Source of the DNA: Bacteriovoracaceae bacterium | Lineage (GTDB): Bacteria; Bdellovibrionota; Bacteriovoracia; Bacteriovoracales; Bacteriovoracaceae | NCBI GenBank assembly: GCA_020630335.1 | Contig: JAHDBN010000001.1 | Coordinates: 124,001-188,000 of the forward strand | Direction: 5' to 3' | Length of the DNA stretch: 64,000 nt | Made by a program: the position numbers and the translations under genes | Shown here: positions 7,452 through 18,966 of the stretch, piece after piece | Position numbering within the stretch: the stretch's first letter is position 1 | Layout of the letters: each line of letters opens with the position of its first letter | Notes under the pieces: generated by a model | Told to the model about the DNA's origin: nothing | Seen by the model: the letters and a program-made list of their open reading frames with translations, nothing else | The model's database searches: none

Positions 7452-8087
7452 TTAAGCCTTCTCTACCTGTGAAACATCTAACTCTACAGGTGTAGGCCTA
7501 CCAAATATTGATACATTAACTTTTAATTTACCTTTTTCATTTATATTCTCTACCGTTCCAACGAAAGAAGAGAATGGTCCTTCTATAACTTTAACAGAGT
7601 CACCTTCGTTAAAATTAGAAACAGACTTTTGAACTTTGAATCCATCTTTTGCCTGGCCTAGTAAAAACGCAACCTCATCATCTTTTATTGGTGAAGGTTT
7701 CGACTTATCACCACTAACAAAGCCAGTGATTTTATCAGTGTTCTTAACTAAGTGCCATGTCTTATCATTCATGATCATTTTAACAAGAAGATATCCTGGG
7801 AAGAATTTCTTCTTCATATTTCTTTTCTTACCCTTAACACTTATCGTAACGTCTTCTTCAGGAAGAAAAACTTCTGAAAAATATTCAGTCATCTTATGAT
7901 TTACAATTCTATCTACTAAAGTCTTCTTAACTCTAGCTTCGAATCCACTAAACACATGAACTACATACCACTTAAATTCAGGAGTCTCACCTTTTGAAAG
8001 AAAACTAAACTCTTGAGTTTCTTCATTCTCTTCTTGAGTTTCAACTTCTTCTTTTTCAATATCTTCTGATTTATTTTCTTCAGTCAT
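7452..8087 (-). CDS. nusG: Transcription elongation/antitermination factor NusG
   Basis: This 211-residue NusG starts with a Glu-rich extension of about 37 residues (EENKSEDIEKEEVETQEENE) not found in the E. coli protein. The NGN domain follows (KWYVVHVFSGFEARVKKTL, FFPGYLLVKMIMND), then the C-terminal KOW domain (FNEGDSVKVIEGPFSSFVG, VSIFGRPTPVELD). NusG binds the beta' clamp helices and couples polymerase to Rho or to ribosomal S10. It lies 12 bases after secE on the same strand. The acidic leader is the only oddity; it is in frame and contains no internal ATG that would start closer to the NGN domain. Confidence 0.97.
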   Translation of the reverse strand: MTEENKSEDIEKEEVETQEENEETQEFSFLSKGETPEFKWYVVHVFSGFEARVKKTLVDRIVNHKMTEYFSEVFLPEEDVTISVKGKKRNMKKKFFPGYLLVKMIMNDKTWHLVKNTDKITGFVSGDKSKPSPIKDDEVAFLLGQAKDGFKVQKSVSNFNEGDSVKVIEGPFSSFVGTVENINEKGKLKVNVSIFGRPTPVELDVSQVEKA

Positions 8088-8099
8088 ATAAACTAATTC

Positions 8100-8495
8100 C
8101 TAAACCCAACCAGGTAATAAACTTAAGCCCCAAGTAGCAAAGTAATCAAACAATCCAAGAATAAAACCGCAAATTGTTACTAGTATCATTACTTTCCAAG
8201 TCATAGATAAAGTTTCATTTCTATCTGGAAAAATTACTTTTACGATCTCTGAAAATGATTCTTTTAAAAAAGATGATGTCTTTTCATTTTTTAAAATATA
8301 AACAAATGAACCAATTGATAAAATAACAGCAACAGCTTGAGTAATTAAACCATAAGATCCTAGTTTTGATTCCAGCTCAAACCATTCTCCGATTTGTTTA
8401 AAAAATCTGATAAGAATGAAGCACAACATAATGCAAGTTATTGCGACACTTGCATTTAACCATTTCGAATTATCTTTACTTAGTTTTGTTGCCAA
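8100..8495 (-). CDS. secE: Preprotein translocase subunit SecE
   Basis: SecE clamps SecY in the inner-membrane translocon. The protein has three hydrophobic segments (about 11-30, 47-65 and 100-121 from the chosen start), as in gamma-proteobacterial three-helix SecE, with the conserved amphipathic stretch SFSEIVKVIFPDRNETLSMTWKV before the last helix. Start choice: the open frame extends to a TTG at 8507, but GGAGG at 8505-8501 overlaps that codon and sits five bases before a second in-frame TTG at 8495, which fits much better (product MATKLSKDNSKW, 131 residues). nusG follows by 12 bases. No tRNA-Trp precedes it directly; that tRNA lies about 2 kb away. Confidence 0.93.
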   Translation of the reverse strand: MATKLSKDNSKWLNASVAITCIMLCFILIRFFKQIGEWFELESKLGSYGLITQAVAVILSIGSFVYILKNEKTSSFLKESFSEIVKVIFPDRNETLSMTWKVMILVTICGFILGLFDYFATWGLSLLPGWV

Positions 8496-8579
8496 AAGTT
8501 CCTCCAAAAAGACATTAAACCTATCTTAAACATAGATATATCTGCCTTTAAAAATGCTTTTCTAAATATAGAAACTAAA

Positions 8580-8585: not shown

Positions 8586-8672
8586 TACAGTTTTAAATGC
8601 GAAAAGACGAATGTTATTTACGGTGCGGTGCATTTATTCAACATGAGTATCTGAGCATATCATCAATATTAT

Positions 8673-9452
8673 ATGGAAAAAATTAATATAATTAGCTGGA
8701 ATGTAAATGGAATCAGAGCCGTGTGCAGAAAAGGATTTCTTGGTTGGGCGAGCAGAGTAAAGGCCAATACTATCTGTTTGCAAGAGGTTAAGGCACATTT
8801 AGAAGATATTCCACTAGAGATAAAAGAAAATAAAAAATTTAGTTTCGCATCGCACGAAGCTCAGAAAAAAGGGTATTCGGGTGTTTTAAGCATGAGCAAG
8901 AATGCCCCTATAGAGACTGAGATTGGAATTAAAAAAAAGAAATTTAAATCTGAAGGAAGAACCTTAATTCACTTTTATGATAAATTTATATTGTTTAACT
9001 GTTATTTTCCTAACGGTCGCCGTGATCATTCTAGGGTGGATTACAAGCTCGAGTATTCTGAAGAAATTAGAAAGTATGCAAAAAAATTAGAAAAAAAACA
9101 CAATAAACCAATAATTGTATGTGGAGATTTTAATACTGCTCACAAGGAAATTGATTTAAAAAATCCAAAAACAAATAAAAATACAACTGGGTTTCTCCCA
9201 AGAGAGCGAGAATGGATTGATAAATTTATTAAAAGTGGGTTCAGAGATTGCTTTCGTGAATTACATCCTGAAAAAAAAGATGTTTATAGTTGGTGGAGCT
9301 ACAGAGGAGATTGTAGGAAAAAAAATGTAGGATGGAGAATCGATTATTTTTTTGTTTCAGAATCTCTTATGCCTCATGTGAAAAAATGTGAATACTTACC
9401 CAAAGTAGAAGGATCAGATCATTGCCCAATCAGAATAACTTTAGAAATTTAA
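8673..9452 (+). CDS. xth: Exodeoxyribonuclease III
   Basis: This 259-residue EEP-superfamily nuclease has the exonuclease III/AP-endonuclease motifs in order: ISWNVNGIRA (7-16), LQEVKA with metal-binding Glu38, the CGDFNTAHKEIDL motif, an MGXR-like WWSYRGDCRKKNVGWRIDYF region and the terminal GSDHCPI with the catalytic Asp249-His250 pair. It cleaves at abasic sites and trims 3' ends in base excision repair. The length is typical (about 255-270). It is transcribed away from secE and overlaps the next gene by 31 bases. xth is not usually found next to secE, so this looks like an insertion on the opposite strand within the tuf-tRNA-secE neighbourhood. Confidence 0.93.
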   Translation: MEKINIISWNVNGIRAVCRKGFLGWASRVKANTICLQEVKAHLEDIPLEIKENKKFSFASHEAQKKGYSGVLSMSKNAPIETEIGIKKKKFKSEGRTLIHFYDKFILFNCYFPNGRRDHSRVDYKLEYSEEIRKYAKKLEKKHNKPIIVCGDFNTAHKEIDLKNPKTNKNTTGFLPREREWIDKFIKSGFRDCFRELHPEKKDVYSWWSYRGDCRKKNVGWRIDYFFVSESLMPHVKKCEYLPKVEGSDHCPIRITLEI

Positions 9453-10507
9453 AAAATTTATTAACCAAACATTGGGAAGTGTTTTTTTTCTTAGCTGGTT
9501 TTGTATTTGATATTTTCACACTTGGTGAAATCGATGAGACATGGAACATTACCTCGCAATCACTTTATCTTTTTCTTGCCAGCGTCCTTCTTTATTTTGA
9601 ATTCAAAACAATTAATCCTGAAAAAATTAGAAATTCAAAAGTCTGGAGTTTCTTTATTAAATACTATGACGGGATTTTTCATTTTCTGATAGGAAGTTTA
9701 ATTAGTGTCTTTACTCTTTTTTATTTTAAAAGTACTTCATTTGTAACCTCTTTTATTTTTATTGCATTTATTCTTTTTATTATGATTGCAAATGAATTAC
9801 CTATATTTGTAAGACTAGGTCGAATCTTTAAATCATTTTTACTAGGCTTATGTACCTGTTCATTTTTTACCTATATAGTCCCTCTTTTAATGAAAGAAAT
9901 TGGAAGAACTCCTTTCTTTATAGGGATTGTAACTTCTTTAACGTTGTTATTTTTTGTGTATTTGATTTATTCTAAATTTTCAGAAGACAAAGTTTTTAAT
10001 CATTTTCTCCTACCTTCATTCGGAGCATGTTTTTTATTTCTTTCTCTTTATATCTTTAAAATTCTTCCCCCTGTACCTTTAGCCATTAAAGATATTGGAG
10101 TTTATCAAAAAATAGAAAAAATTGATGGGCAGTACAATTGCTATCATCAAAGGATTTGGTGGCAGTTTTGGAAAAAAGGTGATCAGGATTTTTATCTGAA
10201 TAAAAAATCTCGGGTTCATGTTTTCTTTACTCTTTACTCTCCTTCTAATTTTTCTGACTCAGTAATTGTTCGCTGGAGCAAGAGATCGAAAAAAGGATGG
10301 ATTAAGTATGACGATATCCCTATTAAAATAACTGGTGGTCGAAAAAAAGGTTTTAGAGGTATTGCTTATAAAGAGAAAATTGTTTCGGGGGAATGGAAGG
10401 TTAGTGTTAGAAGTAAAGATCTGCGAGAAATTGGAAGAATAAAAATTAATGTTTATCCTGAGGAATTTAGGGATCCGCTGGTTGTTTTGTCTAAGGATGT
10501 TTTTTGA
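9422..10507 (+). CDS. Multi-pass membrane protein with C-terminal DUF2914-like domain
   Basis: A 361-residue protein. After a short polar N-terminus come about seven hydrophobic segments (residues about 18-225, e.g. WEVFFFLAGFVFDIFTLG, TSFIFIAFILFIMIANELPIF). The last ~130 residues are a soluble beta-rich domain with GWIKYDDIPIKITGGRKKGFRG and GEWKVSVRSKDLREIGRIK, the pattern of DUF2914. DUF2914 has no established function; fusion to a membrane region is common in Proteobacteria. The frame opens at TTG 9422, inside xth, with AAGGA about 11 bases upstream; the KHWEVFFFLAGF segment lies about 15 residues in, so no later start is credible except GTG at 9479. The stop lies just before the tRNA-Trp gene, which is read in the opposite direction. 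Confidence 0.75.
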   Translation: MPNQNNFRNLKNLLTKHWEVFFFLAGFVFDIFTLGEIDETWNITSQSLYLFLASVLLYFEFKTINPEKIRNSKVWSFFIKYYDGIFHFLIGSLISVFTLFYFKSTSFVTSFIFIAFILFIMIANELPIFVRLGRIFKSFLLGLCTCSFFTYIVPLLMKEIGRTPFFIGIVTSLTLLFFVYLIYSKFSEDKVFNHFLLPSFGACFLFLSLYIFKILPPVPLAIKDIGVYQKIEKIDGQYNCYHQRIWWQFWKKGDQDFYLNKKSRVHVFFTLYSPSNFSDSVIVRWSKRSKKGWIKYDDIPIKITGGRKKGFRGIAYKEKIVSGEWKVSVRSKDLREIGRIKINVYPEEFRDPLVVLSKDVF

Positions 10508-10511
10508 AAAA

Positions 10512-10588
10512 TGGCGGGTGCAGAGGGATTCGAACCCCCAACCTACTGATTTGGAATCAGCCGCTCTACCAATTGGAGCTATACACCC
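10512..10588 (-). tRNA. trnW: tRNA-Trp (anticodon CCA)
   Basis: On the minus strand the acceptor GGGTGTA pairs with TGCACCC, followed by discriminator G and an encoded CCA (10514-10512). The anticodon arm GCTGA-TTCCAAA-TCAGT gives anticodon CCA, and the T arm contains GGTTCGAATCC. The 77-base gene includes CCA. In many bacteria tRNA-Trp lies between tuf and secE on the same strand. Here both flanks keep that strand and order (tuf at 14.5-15.7 kb, secE at 8.1-8.5 kb), but protein genes on both sides separate them. Confidence 0.97.
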
Positions 10589-10608
10589 TATAATTAGATT
10601 GTCTTAAT

Positions 10609-10636
10609 AAGATACTTTCTGAACGTTTACTGTCAA
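10609..10636 (-). promoter_or_regulatory. Promoter of tRNA-Trp
   Basis: On the minus strand a perfect TTGACA (10636-10631) is followed after 16 bases by TATCTT (10614-10609). The tRNA 5' end is about 20 bases downstream. This sigma-70-type promoter means the tRNA is now expressed on its own rather than with tuf. Confidence 0.7.
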
Positions 10637-10676
10637 CTATTTTTAATTTTTTCATGGATTATGCCGATCATTACAG

Positions 10677-12491
10677 GTGATAAAATATTTAATTATTGTC
10701 ATTTCAGGAGTTTCTTTTTTATCAATGTCTCAGGACTATTTGAAAAAGGATACTCTAATATCTCGGTCTCAGTATCTTATTAAGAAAAGTAAAACAGAAA
10801 ATCTAGACTCAAGAGAAACTTGTAATATTGTTAAAACAATCACACCTCCTTTTCAAACCTCAGGTAAATACCAACAAGGTGATAAAGTATATGAAAATCT
10901 TCGTGATGAAAATTCAAACATTAAAGCGAGACTTCCAGTTGGATCCTTGATTAAAACTTCTAATCTTTTATCAGATGAGATTGAAAAGGAACTCATTACT
11001 ATTCAGCAAGAAAAAATTAAACTTGCAGATTATCATTTTAGAAATATTCCTGAATATAAAAATCACAGAGAAGTTTTTCTAAAACACCTAAATCTTGATG
11101 ATATTTCATCCATTCAAACTTTAGGAGTAAAGTTTCTCAATCTTGATCAAAACTCAAAAAAGCTTTTCAGGCCTTTTGAATTACTTAAGAATAGTTTCTC
11201 ATCAAGTGAGAAAATTAAAAAATCTCAGAAAAATCTTTCTAGACTTGGAAGAGTAAGGGTAAATGTCGTTCTTTCAAATAAAAAAATTATTGATCAACTC
11301 TCAAGAATACATCCAAGTAAAAAACACGTGAACTTTACGAAACTCACAGGATCAGATGACCGACCAATTAGTTATCAAGGTGAAGATGGTTTTTTAGATC
11401 CAAACTCCTTAGGTTTATACAAAACAGGAGGTAATGTTTTTTATGTTAAAAGAAGTACTGCCTTATTCAAAACAACATGGAACGATGGAGTAGAAGAGAA
11501 TCTTGAAGGTAGTATTTTAAAATTTAAAGTTGATTTTGATTCAAATAAAAATCTTTTTTATTATCAAGCCAGGGAATGTTGTTTTAGAGAAAACACCTCT
11601 CAAGGAACAAAGAAAGTATGCCATCTTAATAAATATCTTTTTGATGTAGAAAATAAAGATATTAATGTTTCTTCAGAAAAATGGATAGATCTTACTGATC
11701 CTTGTTGCCAAGGGAATCTCTTGAATTCACTTGAAGTATTACCCCAATCTCAATATAAAAATTTTTTAAAAGTACTTGATCTTTTAAAGAGTAATGGTGA
11801 AGTAGTTAACTACGGCGATCTTGATTCTTCTCTTTTACTAGCGAAAGATTTAGCACAGAAGTCAACTCGTTTTACTTCTTCAGGTAATAAGAAAAAAGAA
11901 AAATATTCAACTATTCTAGATGATGATCTTTTAAAAATCCCTCTTCATAACCCAAGAATATTAAATATAAAAAACAAATCACGAGAAATACTTGATGGTC
12001 CTTTTAATACTTTTAATTACTCTCCTCATGAAGGAAAAAATGAATTAAATGATACTTGGGCAAAGCCTATTTCTGCTTGTGCTTTTTTACAAGTTGCTAA
12101 GAAGTGGCAAGATACTAAATGCTCAAAAGGAAAAAATCTATGCAGAATAGGTTTTGGGCATGTTTATCATCCTAGTCATTTATCCTATTTTCCTGATCGC
12201 AGTAGCACTCCTCATGAATCTCACTCAAGTGGAGAATGTTTTGATTTTAGACCTTTTACCAATAGTCCTGATCACGCTTTTGGGCCTATGGATCACAGAT
12301 ATCAAACTTATAATAGAAAACTCACTAAAGAATTTATAAACCTTTTAAAAGAATCTGGTGTTAAAGATATTGTTTTTAATGACTCTAAAATTAAGAATAC
12401 TCGATATGTAGATGGCCATCATAATCATATTCATGCTTGTTTTAAGCAAACTGATCCTGATATAAAAAAAACATGCAATAATGGCCTTTAA
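10677..12491 (+). CDS. Predicted exported LAS-type metallopeptidase (M15/M74-like)
   Basis: A 604-residue protein with an N-terminal hydrophobic segment (IKYLIIVISGVSFLSMSQ) typical of export. The long middle (about 30-440) has no family I recognise. The C-terminal ~150 residues contain SHSSGECFDFRPF (His516 and Asp523, the SxHxxGxxxD zinc motif of D-Ala-D-Ala metallopeptidases) and DGHHNHIHACF (His584/His586, the HxH zinc ligand motif, closest to MepA-type HDHHFH). This suggests a periplasmic or secreted murein or peptide hydrolase. Several cysteine pairs (CCF, DPCCQG) suit an exported protein. Start: GTG at 10677 is the only codon giving a complete signal segment; no clear Shine-Dalgarno is seen. 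Its stop directly abuts the stop of the convergent lipoprotein gene. In a predatory bacterium a role in self or prey wall remodelling is possible but inferred. Confidence 0.7.
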   Translation: MIKYLIIVISGVSFLSMSQDYLKKDTLISRSQYLIKKSKTENLDSRETCNIVKTITPPFQTSGKYQQGDKVYENLRDENSNIKARLPVGSLIKTSNLLSDEIEKELITIQQEKIKLADYHFRNIPEYKNHREVFLKHLNLDDISSIQTLGVKFLNLDQNSKKLFRPFELLKNSFSSSEKIKKSQKNLSRLGRVRVNVVLSNKKIIDQLSRIHPSKKHVNFTKLTGSDDRPISYQGEDGFLDPNSLGLYKTGGNVFYVKRSTALFKTTWNDGVEENLEGSILKFKVDFDSNKNLFYYQARECCFRENTSQGTKKVCHLNKYLFDVENKDINVSSEKWIDLTDPCCQGNLLNSLEVLPQSQYKNFLKVLDLLKSNGEVVNYGDLDSSLLLAKDLAQKSTRFTSSGNKKKEKYSTILDDDLLKIPLHNPRILNIKNKSREILDGPFNTFNYSPHEGKNELNDTWAKPISACAFLQVAKKWQDTKCSKGKNLCRIGFGHVYHPSHLSYFPDRSSTPHESHSSGECFDFRPFTNSPDHAFGPMDHRYQTYNRKLTKEFINLLKESGVKDIVFNDSKIKNTRYVDGHHNHIHACFKQTDPDIKKTCNNGL

Positions 12492-14490: not shown

Positions 14491-15681
14491 TTACTCAATA
14501 ATCTCTGAAACAGTACCAGCACCAATAGTTCTACCACCTTCTCTAATCGCAAATCTTAATCCTTTCTCCATTGCAATTGGAGTGATCAATTCTGCTGTAA
14601 AGCTAGTGTTATCTCCTGGCATAATCATCTCTGTTCCTGCTGCCAACTCGATTGAACCTGTAACGTCTGTTGTTCTGAAATAAAATTGTGGTCTATATCC
14701 CTTAAAGATTGGTGTGTGTCTTCCACCCTCTTCTTTAGTTAGAATATATACTTCACACTTAAATTTCTTATGTGGCTTAACTGATCCTGGCTTAATTAAA
14801 CACTGACCTCTTTGGATATCTTCTCTCTTTGTACCTCTAAGAAGAACACCTACGTTATCCCCTGCTCTACCTTCATCAAGAAGCTTTCTAAACATCTCAA
14901 CTCCAGTAACTGTAGTTGTTGTAGACTCTTTGATTCCAATAATCTCAATCTCTTCACCAACTTTTACGATCCCTCTTTCTACTCTACCTGTAACAACTGT
15001 ACCTCTACCTGAAATAGAGAAAACATCCTCTACTGGCATTAAGAAATCTTTATCAATATCTCTTTCTGGTGTTGGAATATACTCATCAACCTTAGCCATT
15101 AGTTCTAAGATCTTAGTTTTTCCAATATTTTCATCTCTTCCCTCTACTGCTGCTAGAGCTGATCCAGAAACGATAGGAATATCATCTCCTGGGAAGTCAT
15201 AAGAAGATAAAAGCTCTCTAACTTCCATCTCTACTAACTCTAATAACTCTTCATCATCAACCTGATCTACTTTGTTTAAGAAAACAACGATCGCTGGAAC
15301 ACCAACCTGTCTAGCAAGAAGGATGTGCTCTCTAGTTTGTGGCATAGGTCCGTCTGCTGCGTTAACAACAAGGATTGCACCATCCATCTGAGCTGCACCT
15401 GTAATCATGTTCTTTACATAATCGGCGTGACCTGGACAGTCTACGTGAGCGTAATGTCTGTTAGCTGTTTCATACTCTACGTGTGCTGTATTAATTGTGA
15501 TCCCTCTAGCTTTTTCTTCTGGAGCTGAATCGATATCTGCATAAGACTTAGCTTCAAGCCCTGAAGCTTCTGCTAAAGTCATTGTGATTGCTGCTGTTAA
15601 AGTTGTTTTACCGTGGTCGACGTGACCAATTGTTCCGATATTTACGTGTGGTTTAGATCGGTCGAATTTTTCTTTTGCCAT
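14491..15681 (-). CDS. tuf: Translation elongation factor Tu
   Basis: This 396-residue protein is nearly identical in layout to other EF-Tu proteins. The GTPase G motifs are all present: GHVDHGKTT (about 19-27), [17 protein letters not shown] and the SGSALAA motif. The effector loop [13 protein letters not shown] and the C-terminal domains 2 and 3 follow, ending [10 protein letters not shown]. It delivers aminoacyl-tRNA to the ribosomal A site. It stands alone with its own promoter and terminator, not in a str operon, so it corresponds to the tufB position upstream of tRNA-Trp and secE. SD CAGGAGAG precedes ATG 15681. Confidence 0.98.
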
Positions 15682-15800: not shown

Positions 15801-15875
<75 letters not shown>

Positions 15876-15945
15876 GTATGAAATTCCTAGTCTTTATAAT
15901 TTTCAAGAAAAATATTAGTATATTTATATAATACTAGGATTTTAG

Positions 15946-17631
15946 ATGTCAGAAATTATTCATGTTGGTTTAGGAAAAGAAGAAATCACGCCAGATGTGA
16001 CTGATGCTATATTTCTTGGATTCGCTAGGCCTAATCAAAAATCTTTAAATATTAAAGAGAAACTTCATGCTCGCTCATTAATCTTTAAGAATAGTGATAC
16101 TTACTGGATATATTCTAATTCAGAGATTTGTTTTATTACAAATAAGCTTTATCAAGAAGTTTATAAAAAATTAAAAGAACATGATTATTTCAAAGATCTT
16201 AAAAGAGACCAGCTGACTCTTTGTGCTCAACATACTCATTCTTCTCCGGGAGGATATGATGAGTATGCTATTTATAATATTCCAAACAAAGGTTTAATTC
16301 CAAAAGTTTTAGATCGCTTAACCGATGGGATCGTCTCATCTATTATTCAAGCTTATCGTGACCTAAAACCTGCAAATTTAGAATACAAGGAAGGTTTTTT
16401 TCAAGACGAAGATGTTTCTTTTAATAGAGTTTTAAATGCTTATATAAGAAATCCTGAAGTCTCTAATAAAAATATTAATAAAAAAGAAGCTGCTCCTAAA
16501 AAAGTTCAAATGTTAGTTATAACTAGAGAGGGAAAAAAATCATTTATTAATTGGTTTCCTGTGCATGGGACTTCTATTGGAAGTACTAATAGAGATATTC
16601 ATCCTGATAATAAGGGTATGGCTTCAAAATTCTCAGAAGAACAAGAAAACTTAGAACTCGCAGTTTTCTCTCAAGAATGTTCCGGAGACATTTCTCCTAA
16701 TTATATTAAAGAAAATGCAAAACATAGAGGGTTTAGAGGCAAATTCAAAAATGATTTTAAATCAGCTGATTTCAACGGTAGCTTGCAATCTAAAAAAGCC
16801 CTAGAAATATTAAACTCTAATCAGGGTTTTAAACTTGGGAGTTTTATTGACTCTGATATTATGTATTTAAATTTTGGAAAGCTCTCCTTTAATGAAGATG
16901 TGAAGACAACTTCTGGCGCACTTGGTGTTTCTTTTTTAATTGGATGTCCCTCTGATGGAAGAGCATTTAGTGATTTATTAGGATTCTTTCTAAAATATAT
17001 AGTTATTTTTTTAAATTCATTTTATCTTTTAAAAAGCTATTTGTTTAATAAGGAAAGATATCAAAGGAAAAAGTTATACTATAAGCTTCAGGCACCTAAA
17101 GTGGTGGTTCTGGCAACTGGAAAAAGAGAGTTTTTATCTGACTCTAAATCTTGGCTCCTGAAAATTCTTAAACTTGCCGATCCCTTAATGGGTGAATTTT
17201 CTAATCAGTACTTTAAAGGTGCTCTTAATGAAAATAGTTGGCTACAAGAAATTCTACCAGTTCAATTTAGCACCTTAGGAGAACTGCTCATTGTTTCTTT
17301 ACCTTTTGAGCCTACAACCATTGCTGGCTTAAGAATAAAAAAAGCTCTTGAAAAAGAAATTCAGCATACAAGTATTAGCCAAATCATAATCAATCCATAT
17401 TCAAATTCTTATTGTGGATACGTTACTACACCTGAAGAGTACGAAGCTCAAACTTACGAAGGTGGACATACACTTTATGGTAAATATACATTGCCTTGCA
17501 TTCAAAATGAGCTTGTTAAAATTTTTAGAATTTACATAAAAAGAGAAGAAAAAAGACAACTCGACAAATCAACTCTTCCTCCTACGTTTTCACCTAGCGA
17601 ACTAAGCAAAAGAACTAATGAATTCCTTTAA
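15946..17631 (+). CDS. Neutral/alkaline ceramidase homologue without signal peptide
   Basis: This 561-residue protein has the neutral ceramidase catalytic framework. Zinc-site AQHTHSSPGG is at 94-103 and FPVHGTS has His207. SGDISPN contains Ser250, matching the catalytic Ser of the NxGDxSPN motif. Near the C-terminus are LPFEPTTIAG (Glu) and YCGYVTTPEEYEAQTYEGG (Tyr), the remaining metal-site segments. The family hydrolyses ceramide to sphingosine and fatty acid and is usually exported. Here a TAG stop lies directly before ATG 15946 in the same frame, so no signal peptide is possible. The segment at about 345-370 (LLGFFLKYIVIFLNSFYLL) is hydrophobic and replaces sequence not typical of the family, so the protein may be membrane-attached. 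The C-terminal immunoglobulin-like domain of secreted ceramidases appears to be missing. Confidence 0.88.
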   Translation: MSEIIHVGLGKEEITPDVTDAIFLGFARPNQKSLNIKEKLHARSLIFKNSDTYWIYSNSEICFITNKLYQEVYKKLKEHDYFKDLKRDQLTLCAQHTHSSPGGYDEYAIYNIPNKGLIPKVLDRLTDGIVSSIIQAYRDLKPANLEYKEGFFQDEDVSFNRVLNAYIRNPEVSNKNINKKEAAPKKVQMLVITREGKKSFINWFPVHGTSIGSTNRDIHPDNKGMASKFSEEQENLELAVFSQECSGDISPNYIKENAKHRGFRGKFKNDFKSADFNGSLQSKKALEILNSNQGFKLGSFIDSDIMYLNFGKLSFNEDVKTTSGALGVSFLIGCPSDGRAFSDLLGFFLKYIVIFLNSFYLLKSYLFNKERYQRKKLYYKLQAPKVVVLATGKREFLSDSKSWLLKILKLADPLMGEFSNQYFKGALNENSWLQEILPVQFSTLGELLIVSLPFEPTTIAGLRIKKALEKEIQHTSISQIIINPYSNSYCGYVTTPEEYEAQTYEGGHTLYGKYTLPCIQNELVKIFRIYIKREEKRQLDKSTLPPTFSPSELSKRTNEFL

Positions 17632-17697: not shown

Positions 17698-18207
17698 ATG
17701 AATAAATTTTTAATAACCCTTTTTTTATTTTTTAGTTTGACCCTTCTAGCTGAAGATTTGTCATGTAATAGAATTGCTTACGTGAATTATCAAAAAATTT
17801 TAGTCGACTCAAGTTCTACTATAAAAGGTGATGGCCTTAAATACTTGCTTGATAAAGATCCTATTGCAAAGTCTTACTTAGAAACTTATCAACAAAACAC
17901 TCTCCCTTCTTGGAAAACAGCATTTATTAATACCTTTGGTGTCGCCCTTGCTGCTGTTGGTATATTTACCAACGGAGATTCTGGAATTACCCATAGGAAC
18001 GTATTGGTTGGTGCAGGGTTGAGTGTTATAGGTATTAACTATTTTATTAGTAGAAATAAATATAAAAAAAATGAAGAAAACCTCATGATGTCTATTAGAG
18101 AATATAATAAAAGAAATACTCCTAAGATATATTTCTCTCCAAGTGGGAAGACAGGAAGTGTTTTAAAAAACTGGAAGTTTGGATTTCAAATAGCGAGGAG
18201 TTTTTAA
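17698..18207 (+). CDS. Unknown exported protein with internal membrane segments
   Basis: This 169-residue protein has a signal peptide (MNKFLITLFLFFSLTLLA), then LSCNRIAYVNYQKI, a small helical part, and two further hydrophobic segments (about 80-93 and 100-116: AFINTFGVALAAVGIF, VLVGAGLSVIGINYFI). A basic, hydrophilic C-terminus follows. No family is recognised. Its stop overlaps the next start (TAATG), so it is coupled to the zinc-ribbon gene and lies at the head of the greA-recG operon. Confidence 0.65.
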   Translation: MNKFLITLFLFFSLTLLAEDLSCNRIAYVNYQKILVDSSSTIKGDGLKYLLDKDPIAKSYLETYQQNTLPSWKTAFINTFGVALAAVGIFTNGDSGITHRNVLVGAGLSVIGINYFISRNKYKKNEENLMMSIREYNKRNTPKIYFSPSGKTGSVLKNWKFGFQIARSF

Positions 18208-18491
18208 TGGAAACAAAATGTTGGAAATGCCAGAAATCAATAAACTTCGATGGTATAAAAGTAATGCGTACAGATGAGTGTGAAAGTTGTTATACCGATT
18301 TAAGAGTATGTAAAATGTGTGAGTTCTATGATCTTCATTCTTATAATGAATGTAGAGAAAGCATGGCCACAAGAATTGTAAATAAAGAGAAAGCAAATTT
18401 CTGTGACTACTTTAAATTAGGAGTCCCAGGAGGAAATAATAAAGAAGACCTTTTGAAAGCTGCAGAAGCATTGTTTAAAAAACAAGGATAA
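18207..18491 (+). CDS. Small cysteine-rich zinc-ribbon-like protein
   Basis: This 94-residue soluble protein has eight cysteines in metal-site spacing: CWKC (5-8), CESC, CKMC, then two single Cys (YNEC, NFCDYF). The segment CKMCEFYDLHSYNEC followed by KANFCDYFKLG is characteristic of a small family seen in Leptospira and delta-proteobacterial genomes whose function I do not know. It probably binds one or two zinc ions. Start and stop couple it tightly to the upstream membrane protein and to greA, which begins four bases after its stop. Confidence 0.75.
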   Translation: METKCWKCQKSINFDGIKVMRTDECESCYTDLRVCKMCEFYDLHSYNECRESMATRIVNKEKANFCDYFKLGVPGGNNKEDLLKAAEALFKKQG

Positions 18492-18495
18492 AAAA

Positions 18496-18966
18496 ATGAA
18501 TTTTCCTATGACTATTCCTGGCAAAGAATCTCTACAAAAAGAATTAGATGAACTAATTAAAGTTGATAGAGAAAATATAAAAGTCGCCATCGCTGAAGCA
18601 AGAGCTCTTGGCGATCTAAAAGAAAATGCTGAATACCATGCGGCAAAAGAGAAACAATCACACATAGAAGGCCGAATTGCTGAACTTCAAAATAAAATTG
18701 CAAAAGCGAAAGTTGTTGATGTTTCTAAATTATCTGGAAGCAAAGTAGTTTTTGGAGCAACTGTTACTATCTTTGATCATGAAAAAAATACTTCTACTAC
18801 CTTTCAACTTGTTGGAGAGGATGAAGCAATGGAGCATAAAGATAAAATCTCTTATATCTCCCCTCTTGGAAAATCTCTAATCGGTAAAGAAGCTGGTGAT
18901 GAAATCACTGTAAAGGCACCGAAAGGAGATATCATTTATGAATTAGAAAATGTCGAATACATCTAA
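18496..18966 (+). CDS. greA: Transcription elongation factor GreA
   Basis: This 156-residue protein has the GreA coiled coil with the acidic tip motif DLKENAEYHAAKEKQSHIEGR (the conserved Asp and Glu that stimulate RNA cleavage in the polymerase secondary channel). The FKBP-like C-terminal domain follows (ISYISPLGKSLIGKEAGDEI, VKAPKGDIIYELENVEYI). GreA rescues backtracked RNA polymerase. AAGGA lies about 9 bases before the ATG. Its end overlaps the recG start by 17 bases, implying translational coupling. Confidence 0.97.
   Translation: MNFPMTIPGKESLQKELDELIKVDRENIKVAIAEARALGDLKENAEYHAAKEKQSHIEGRIAELQNKIAKAKVVDVSKLSGSKVVFGATVTIFDHEKNTSTTFQLVGEDEAMEHKDKISYISPLGKSLIGKEAGDEITVKAPKGDIIYELENVEYI

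Follow-up and report, generated by a model that had tools for sequence, protein, structure and literature searches.

How should a homolog of the neutral ceramidases be understood when it is found in a bacterium that gives it no evident means of leaving the cell, and on whose lipids would such an enzyme act? The question is raised by an open reading frame in a 64,000-nucleotide stretch of the genome of a member of the Bacteriovoracaceae (contig JAHDBN010000001.1, positions 124,001 to 188,000 of the forward strand; hereafter, the window). The initial annotation, made from the letters of the window, described a ceramidase homolog that could not be secreted and that carried an unusual hydrophobic insertion, and it proposed that the enzyme could turn over or remodel ceramides internally rather than attack a host. 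In the literature that we searched, nothing relevant was found on a ceramidase in either Bdellovibrio or Bacteriovorax. Here, we examine the gene and its product, the genes that accompany its relatives across the order (129 genomes), and the fate of the locus in the window species. The features discussed are collected in table 1.

Table 1. Positions of the features of the ceramidase locus and of the putative sphingolipid synthesis genes
Feature	Position	Strand	Basis
tRNA-Thr(GGT), conserved left flank, with a counterpart at this position in three sister genomes	15801..15875	+	
Shine-Dalgarno-like AGGA (15936-15939) and in-frame TAG (15943-15945) abutting the ATG	15936..15945	+	read from the sequence
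Neutral-ceramidase-family hydrolase ORF, 561 aa, without signal peptide or C-terminal domain	15946..17631	+	ORF reading, PF04734 search, fold match
Predicted nucleophile Ser250 in SGDISPN	16693..16695	+	alignment to the P. aeruginosa enzyme (PaCD); S or T in 73 of 75 homologs
Hydrophobic helix, residues 345-370 (modeled helix 343-367), no insertion	16978..17055	+	hydropathy, model, alignment
Insertion that distinguishes the short clade, residues ~391-431, with helices at 404-411 and 413-423	17116..17238	+	alignment; DSSP
Right conserved flank: 169-aa ORF, 94-aa ORF, greA	17698..18966	+	
Serine palmitoyltransferase candidate, Zn-dehydrogenase and divergent GNAT-like ORF	own-genome locus L042 (C35:26000-44000): 8619-9872, 9973-11214, 11257-12345	-, -, +	

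The gene, its product and its clade

The start of the gene is fixed by its immediate context. The Shine-Dalgarno-like AGGA lies six bases 5' of the ATG, and because an in-frame TAG abuts that ATG, an N-terminal extension, and with it a signal peptide, is excluded, as the initial annotation had argued; the ceramidase domain itself begins at residue 6 in a search with PF04734. The score in that search was 305.4 bits against a cut-off of 32.1 (E 9e-91), and the neutral ceramidases of Pseudomonas aeruginosa (PaCD, or CerN) and of humans were matched at E values of 1e-57 and 5e-43, respectively. The assertion that the active-site segments are all present was confirmed by alignment to PaCD: H96, H98, R161, H207, S250, E455, Y492 and Y504 align with H97, H99, R160, H204, S250, E411, Y448 and Y460 of the Pseudomonas enzyme (whose S250 is residue 274 in precursor numbering), and conservation at these eight positions, which are catalytic or bind zinc, extends to 73-75 of 75 homologs. 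At position 250, the residue is S in 49 of the homologs, T in 24 and M in two. An AlphaFold model of the protein (pLDDT 89.6) matches the PaCD structure (2zws) with a Z score of 48.0 over 467 residues at 30% identity, and human ASAH2 (4wgk) with a Z score of 44.0. The open reading frame is a genuine and intact gene of the neutral-ceramidase family.

The protein shares its fold and its zinc and catalytic residues with PaCD, and its fold and catalytic residues with human ASAH2. However, PaCD is secreted and possesses a C-terminal domain, whereas the window protein has neither and carries in addition an insertion peculiar to its clade (residues ~391-431); PF04734 was the only domain found in the domain search, and the structural alignment covers residues 1-511 only of 2zws. 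ASAH2, unlike the window protein, is extracellular or membrane-anchored and also has the C-terminal domain. Assignment to the canonical secreted class (NCBIfam equivalog NF041649) was rejected on the score of 194.7 bits against a cut-off of 1200, as well as on the absent signal peptide, the absent C-terminal domain and the position of the protein in the tree. On balance, the product is probably a zinc amidase that has the neutral-ceramidase fold and resides in the cytosol; its substrate is suggested by homology and by the neighboring genes of its relatives.

The hydrophobic segment was in part misread in the initial annotation. Residues 345-370 are indeed hydrophobic (Kyte-Doolittle mean 1.89 in a 19-residue window), but the corresponding columns hold 33-56 residues in all of the 75 homologs examined, the secreted ones included, and related copies from the Bacteriovoracaceae are equally or more hydrophobic there (up to 2.14). 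The segment is a variable part of the fold that has become more hydrophobic in this group, and not an insertion; in the model, its helix likely faces the membrane. The true insertion is the one at residues ~391-431, a region that spans 39-46 amino acids in the short forms versus 7-11 in the secreted, long clade of the same 75-homolog alignment.

The absence of an export signal is a trait of the family and not a peculiarity of the window species. Short ceramidases are carried by 22 of the 129 genomes of the order (one more weak match, in G063, was left out of this count), and no signal peptide is present in 20 of the 21 readable copies. The exceptional copy, L027, is a second, secreted ceramidase with a normal signal peptide; its genome, G058, holds both this long form and a short signal-less one (L022). 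Among the best 80 relatives outside the order, the short forms (~520-605 aa), carried by Bacteroidota, Bdellovibrionota, Myxococcota and others, are without a signal peptide save for one (L104), whereas the long forms (~630 aa or more) mostly have one, two spirochete proteins excepted. In the phylogenetic tree, the long forms and L027 make up a single clade (100/100 support, branch 0.69), and the window protein and all the short forms fall outside it.

Partner genes of the short ceramidases

Clustering of the genes that surround the ceramidases revealed a recurrent neighbor, a PLP protein of ~385 aa belonging to the alanine-racemase N-terminal family. Its sole sequence match in the PDB is a D-threonine aldolase, and the top PDB folds for its model are beta-hydroxyaspartate aldolase and D-threonine aldolases (TM 0.75-0.79). 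Within the family, Lys48 of the motif RxA[TS]KS is invariant. The predicted fold and the conserved lysine are thus common to this protein, D-threonine aldolase and BhcC, at an identity of 12-17% to the characterized aldolases; the scores of 38-46 bits against the BhcC model stand against a cut-off of 690, and with none of the specific family models does the score attain the cut-off. The partner so appears to form a separate, D-threonine-aldolase-like subfamily.

This aldolase-like gene occurs in 31 of the 129 genomes, namely in 18 of the 22 with a ceramidase versus 13 of the 107 without, and a flavin oxidase of either the GMC or the ALO type is found in 20 of the 22 versus 15 of the 107; these figures should be taken as counts, since P values for co-occurrence ignore shared ancestry. 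Orthologs of the GMC oxidoreductase are present in 24 genomes of the order (the G077 copy being a fragment at a contig end) and those of the ALO-type FAD oxidase in 11 (the G092 and G116 copies being fragments). No genome among the 129 has both, and all 31 of the aldolase genomes have exactly one (22 GMC and nine ALO). Serine palmitoyltransferase was found in none of the 11 ALO-bearing genomes.

The clusters also include an aldehyde dehydrogenase (ALDH) and sometimes a sphingomyelinase-like gene, the product of which has only sphingomyelinase C enzymes as its PDB matches and scores 54 bits, below the cut-off, against TIGR03395. Their arrangement varies. At L128, the ceramidase, the aldolase and the ALO oxidase follow one another with a 4-base overlap at each junction; at L048, ALDH, GMC and aldolase form a run next to the ceramidase; and at L051 the order is ALO, aldolase, an exported sphingomyelinase-like protein and the ceramidase. 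Ceramidases of the secreted type are found near an ALO-aldolase pair in Massilia (L169) and beside ALDH and GMC genes in Chitinimonas (L157), and of 50 ceramidase-bearing genomes spread over many phyla, 28 contain a strong match to the aldolase somewhere. In G066, an APH/choline-kinase-like phosphotransferase that possibly acts on a head-group amine adjoins the aldolase (L045, 3814-4827, minus strand).

The locus and putative sphingolipid synthesis in the window species

In the three sister genomes G066, G067 and G068, the locus reads tRNA-Thr, aldolase, ceramidase, ALDH, a 152-aa ORF, GMC, a large ORF, the 169-aa ORF, the 94-aa ORF and greA, with extra ORFs between the tRNA-Thr and the aldolase in G066. 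In the window, the ceramidase stands alone between the tRNA-Thr and the 169-aa ORF. The flank genes identify G066 as the closest genome (72-87% identity versus 57-78%), and the loss of the partners, on both sides of the ceramidase, is therefore most simply assigned to the lineage of the window itself. The rest of the window genome (the assembly being 98% complete) yielded no aldolase, GMC, ALO or sphingomyelinase-like gene, so the pairing of a flavin oxidase with a PLP aldolase (SphCD-type), which is present in 18 of the 22 ceramidase genomes of the order, is absent from it; the aldehyde dehydrogenases of this genome are distant ones (26-32% identity). With these partner genes missing, the pathway cannot run in the window species as it would in its relatives.

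Some other features of the neighborhood may be recorded here. By their appearance, the window contains nusG/secE-like ORFs (7452-8507), a tRNA-Trp (10512-10588) and EF-Tu (14491-15681), all on the minus strand. The genes nusG, secE, tRNA-Trp and EF-Tu are usually contiguous in bacteria; in the window, tRNA-Trp and EF-Tu lie ~4 kb apart, with lipoprotein-like ORFs and others in between, and tRNA-Thr lies next to EF-Tu on the opposite strand. A scan for promoters and terminators near the ceramidase gene was uninformative.

A search for serine palmitoyltransferase, which the initial annotation had put forward as a check of its proposal, yielded one alpha-oxoamine synthase candidate in the window genome. 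Its top PDB match is the serine palmitoyltransferase of Sphingobacterium (342 bits, versus 281 for the next type), and it scores 442 bits with NF047600 versus 392 bits with the glycine acetyltransferase model, both values lying below the curated cut-offs. We regard it as a good candidate for a serine palmitoyltransferase. The adjacent Zn-dehydrogenase is unlikely to be the threonine dehydrogenase of a kbl-tdh pair (104 bits against a cut-off of 458). A GNAT-like gene adjoins the serine palmitoyltransferase-type synthase in most of the order, as the coordinates of both gene searches reveal, and is a candidate ceramide synthase; the ORF had no confident match to any Pfam or NCBIfam model. The presence of the synthase candidate makes the cell's own ceramides a plausible substrate in the window species.

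Breakdown of ingested lipids or remodeling of the cell's own

The internal turnover of own or prey-derived ceramides that the initial annotation proposed agrees with the absence of secretion and with the synthase candidate. As the general function of the family, turnover or remodeling of the cell's own sphingolipids is nonetheless a tentative reading, to which we would give somewhat less than even weight. In its favor are the candidate synthase with its adjoining GNAT-like gene, the retention of the ceramidase while its catabolic partners disappeared, and the sphingophosphonolipids produced by a relative, B. stolpii, the serine palmitoyltransferase of which has been studied (PMC6148460). But serine palmitoyltransferase is found in just 10 of the 22 ceramidase genomes versus 61 of the 107 others, and the idea that the ceramidase tracks the synthesis of sphingolipids was rejected at the level of the order. 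The 12 ceramidase genomes without the synthase include G068, G024 and G095 (99-100% completeness), and two of the sisters, G067 (94% complete) and G068 (99%), are among those that have the one without the other. Since the ceramidase follows the degradative enzymes and not the synthase, the breakdown of ingested sphingolipids is the better reading for the family.

The gene content of the clusters suggests how such a breakdown could proceed. The ceramidase would probably dock on the membrane from within the cell, by the region of its hydrophobic helix, and release the fatty acid of ceramide-type lipids; in some relatives, a sphingomyelinase-like enzyme outside the cell may act before it. The flavin oxidase, whether GMC or ALO, would oxidize the sphingoid base at its C1 alcohol, and an aldehyde dehydrogenase would then yield the 2-amino-3-hydroxy acid, which the D-threonine-aldolase-like PLP enzyme could cleave into glycine and a fatty aldehyde. 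The latter would be converted to a fatty acid, again by an aldehyde dehydrogenase. When C1 of (2S,3R)-sphinganine becomes a carboxylate by oxidation, C2 takes on the D configuration that D-threonine aldolases require, and this adds to the consistency of the scheme with a partner of that type. We consider it reasonably probable, from what the sequences tell us, that in most of the relatives the ceramidase is the first step of such a cytosolic module and that the window species has lost the later genes.

A parallel exists in P. aeruginosa, where it was proposed that SphC oxidizes and SphD cleaves sphingosine to glycine and an aldehyde, under co-regulation with the ceramidase (PMC3900636); sphBC are required for sphingosine metabolism, and SphC works in the periplasm (PMC11893366). 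The SphR regulon of that species (cerN together with sphBCD, which encode a cytochrome c, a flavin oxidoreductase and a threonine-aldolase-like PLP enzyme) brings together the same kinds of enzyme, ceramidase, flavin oxidase and PLP aldolase, that are linked in the order, although the resemblance of SphC and SphD to the order's partners is one of described enzyme class only. The order's module differs in that it is apparently cytosolic, employs oxidases of the GMC or ALO type, in many cases comprises an ALDH and lies in one gene cluster with the ceramidase, and the window species keeps the ceramidase only. The fold and chemistry are already known; no cytosolic, clustered form with two interchangeable oxidases was found in the literature searched, from which subscription journals were largely missing. 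More tentatively, and with slightly more doubt than belief, we suggest that these clusters represent a widespread and hitherto undescribed cytosolic route of sphingolipid breakdown (in Bdellovibrionota, Bacteroidota and others) that would combine a short ceramidase, C1 oxidation by GMC or ALO plus ALDH, and a new D-threonine-aldolase subfamily, would involve no sphingosine phosphate, and from which the window ceramidase would have been freed, to act instead on ceramides made by the cell itself.

The deep split of the short clade from the secreted ceramidases, its 39-46-residue insertion and the many carriers that have no recognizable ceramide synthesis gene could also be accommodated by an amidase that reuses the neutral-ceramidase fold for some other N-acylated lipid, such as an N-acyl amino acid lipid. 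We think this unlikely: the zinc and catalytic residues are unaltered, the partners fit the chemistry of sphingoid bases, and the sphingomyelinase-like neighbor points to sphingolipids. It is also quite improbable that the window ceramidase is a decaying remnant of the lost module. All its partners are gone from the locus, and its identity to the G066 copy (59%) is below that of the flank genes (72-87%); the G066 ceramidase (L045, 5950-7688, plus strand) is itself disrupted, in two overlapping frames, through a real loss or an assembly fault, while the aldolase, ALDH and GMC genes beside it are open. Yet the reading frame and the catalytic residues of the window gene are intact, and the gene outlasted two deletions that took its neighbors on either side. 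Its nonsynonymous divergence of 0.27-0.31 per site against a synonymous one of 0.66-0.67, although indicative only since the latter is near saturation, points to purifying selection, and its branch in the tree (0.45) is close to those of the module-bearing sisters (0.38-0.39). Export without a classical signal peptide, for an attack on prey lipids outside the cell, might be imagined because members of the order are predators or relatives of predators and other bacteria do secrete ceramidases, but it is most improbable when the order's ceramidases consistently lack a signal and the sole secreted paralog (L027) has a normal signal peptide.

Breakdown of ingested sphingolipids thus remains the better reading for the family, and for the window species, in which the module has been lost, own-lipid remodeling is a possible one. 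An intact and presumably working ceramidase has been kept there, ceramide is probably made and the partners have disappeared, which suggests, with modest confidence, that the enzyme has shifted to own-lipid remodeling; it would probably act on own or ingested ceramides, the base being returned to synthesis.

The degradation of sphingoid bases by bacteria is unsettled: in Pseudomonas, an aldolase route has been proposed, with genetic support for the genes of the first oxidation only (PMC11893366). The clusters described here supply candidate enzymes for each of the steps, reveal two interchangeable oxidases within compact operons, one with three overlapping genes, and explain why the ceramidase would be free of a signal peptide. 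The window species would be a natural case in which the first enzyme of the route has been kept and the rest lost.
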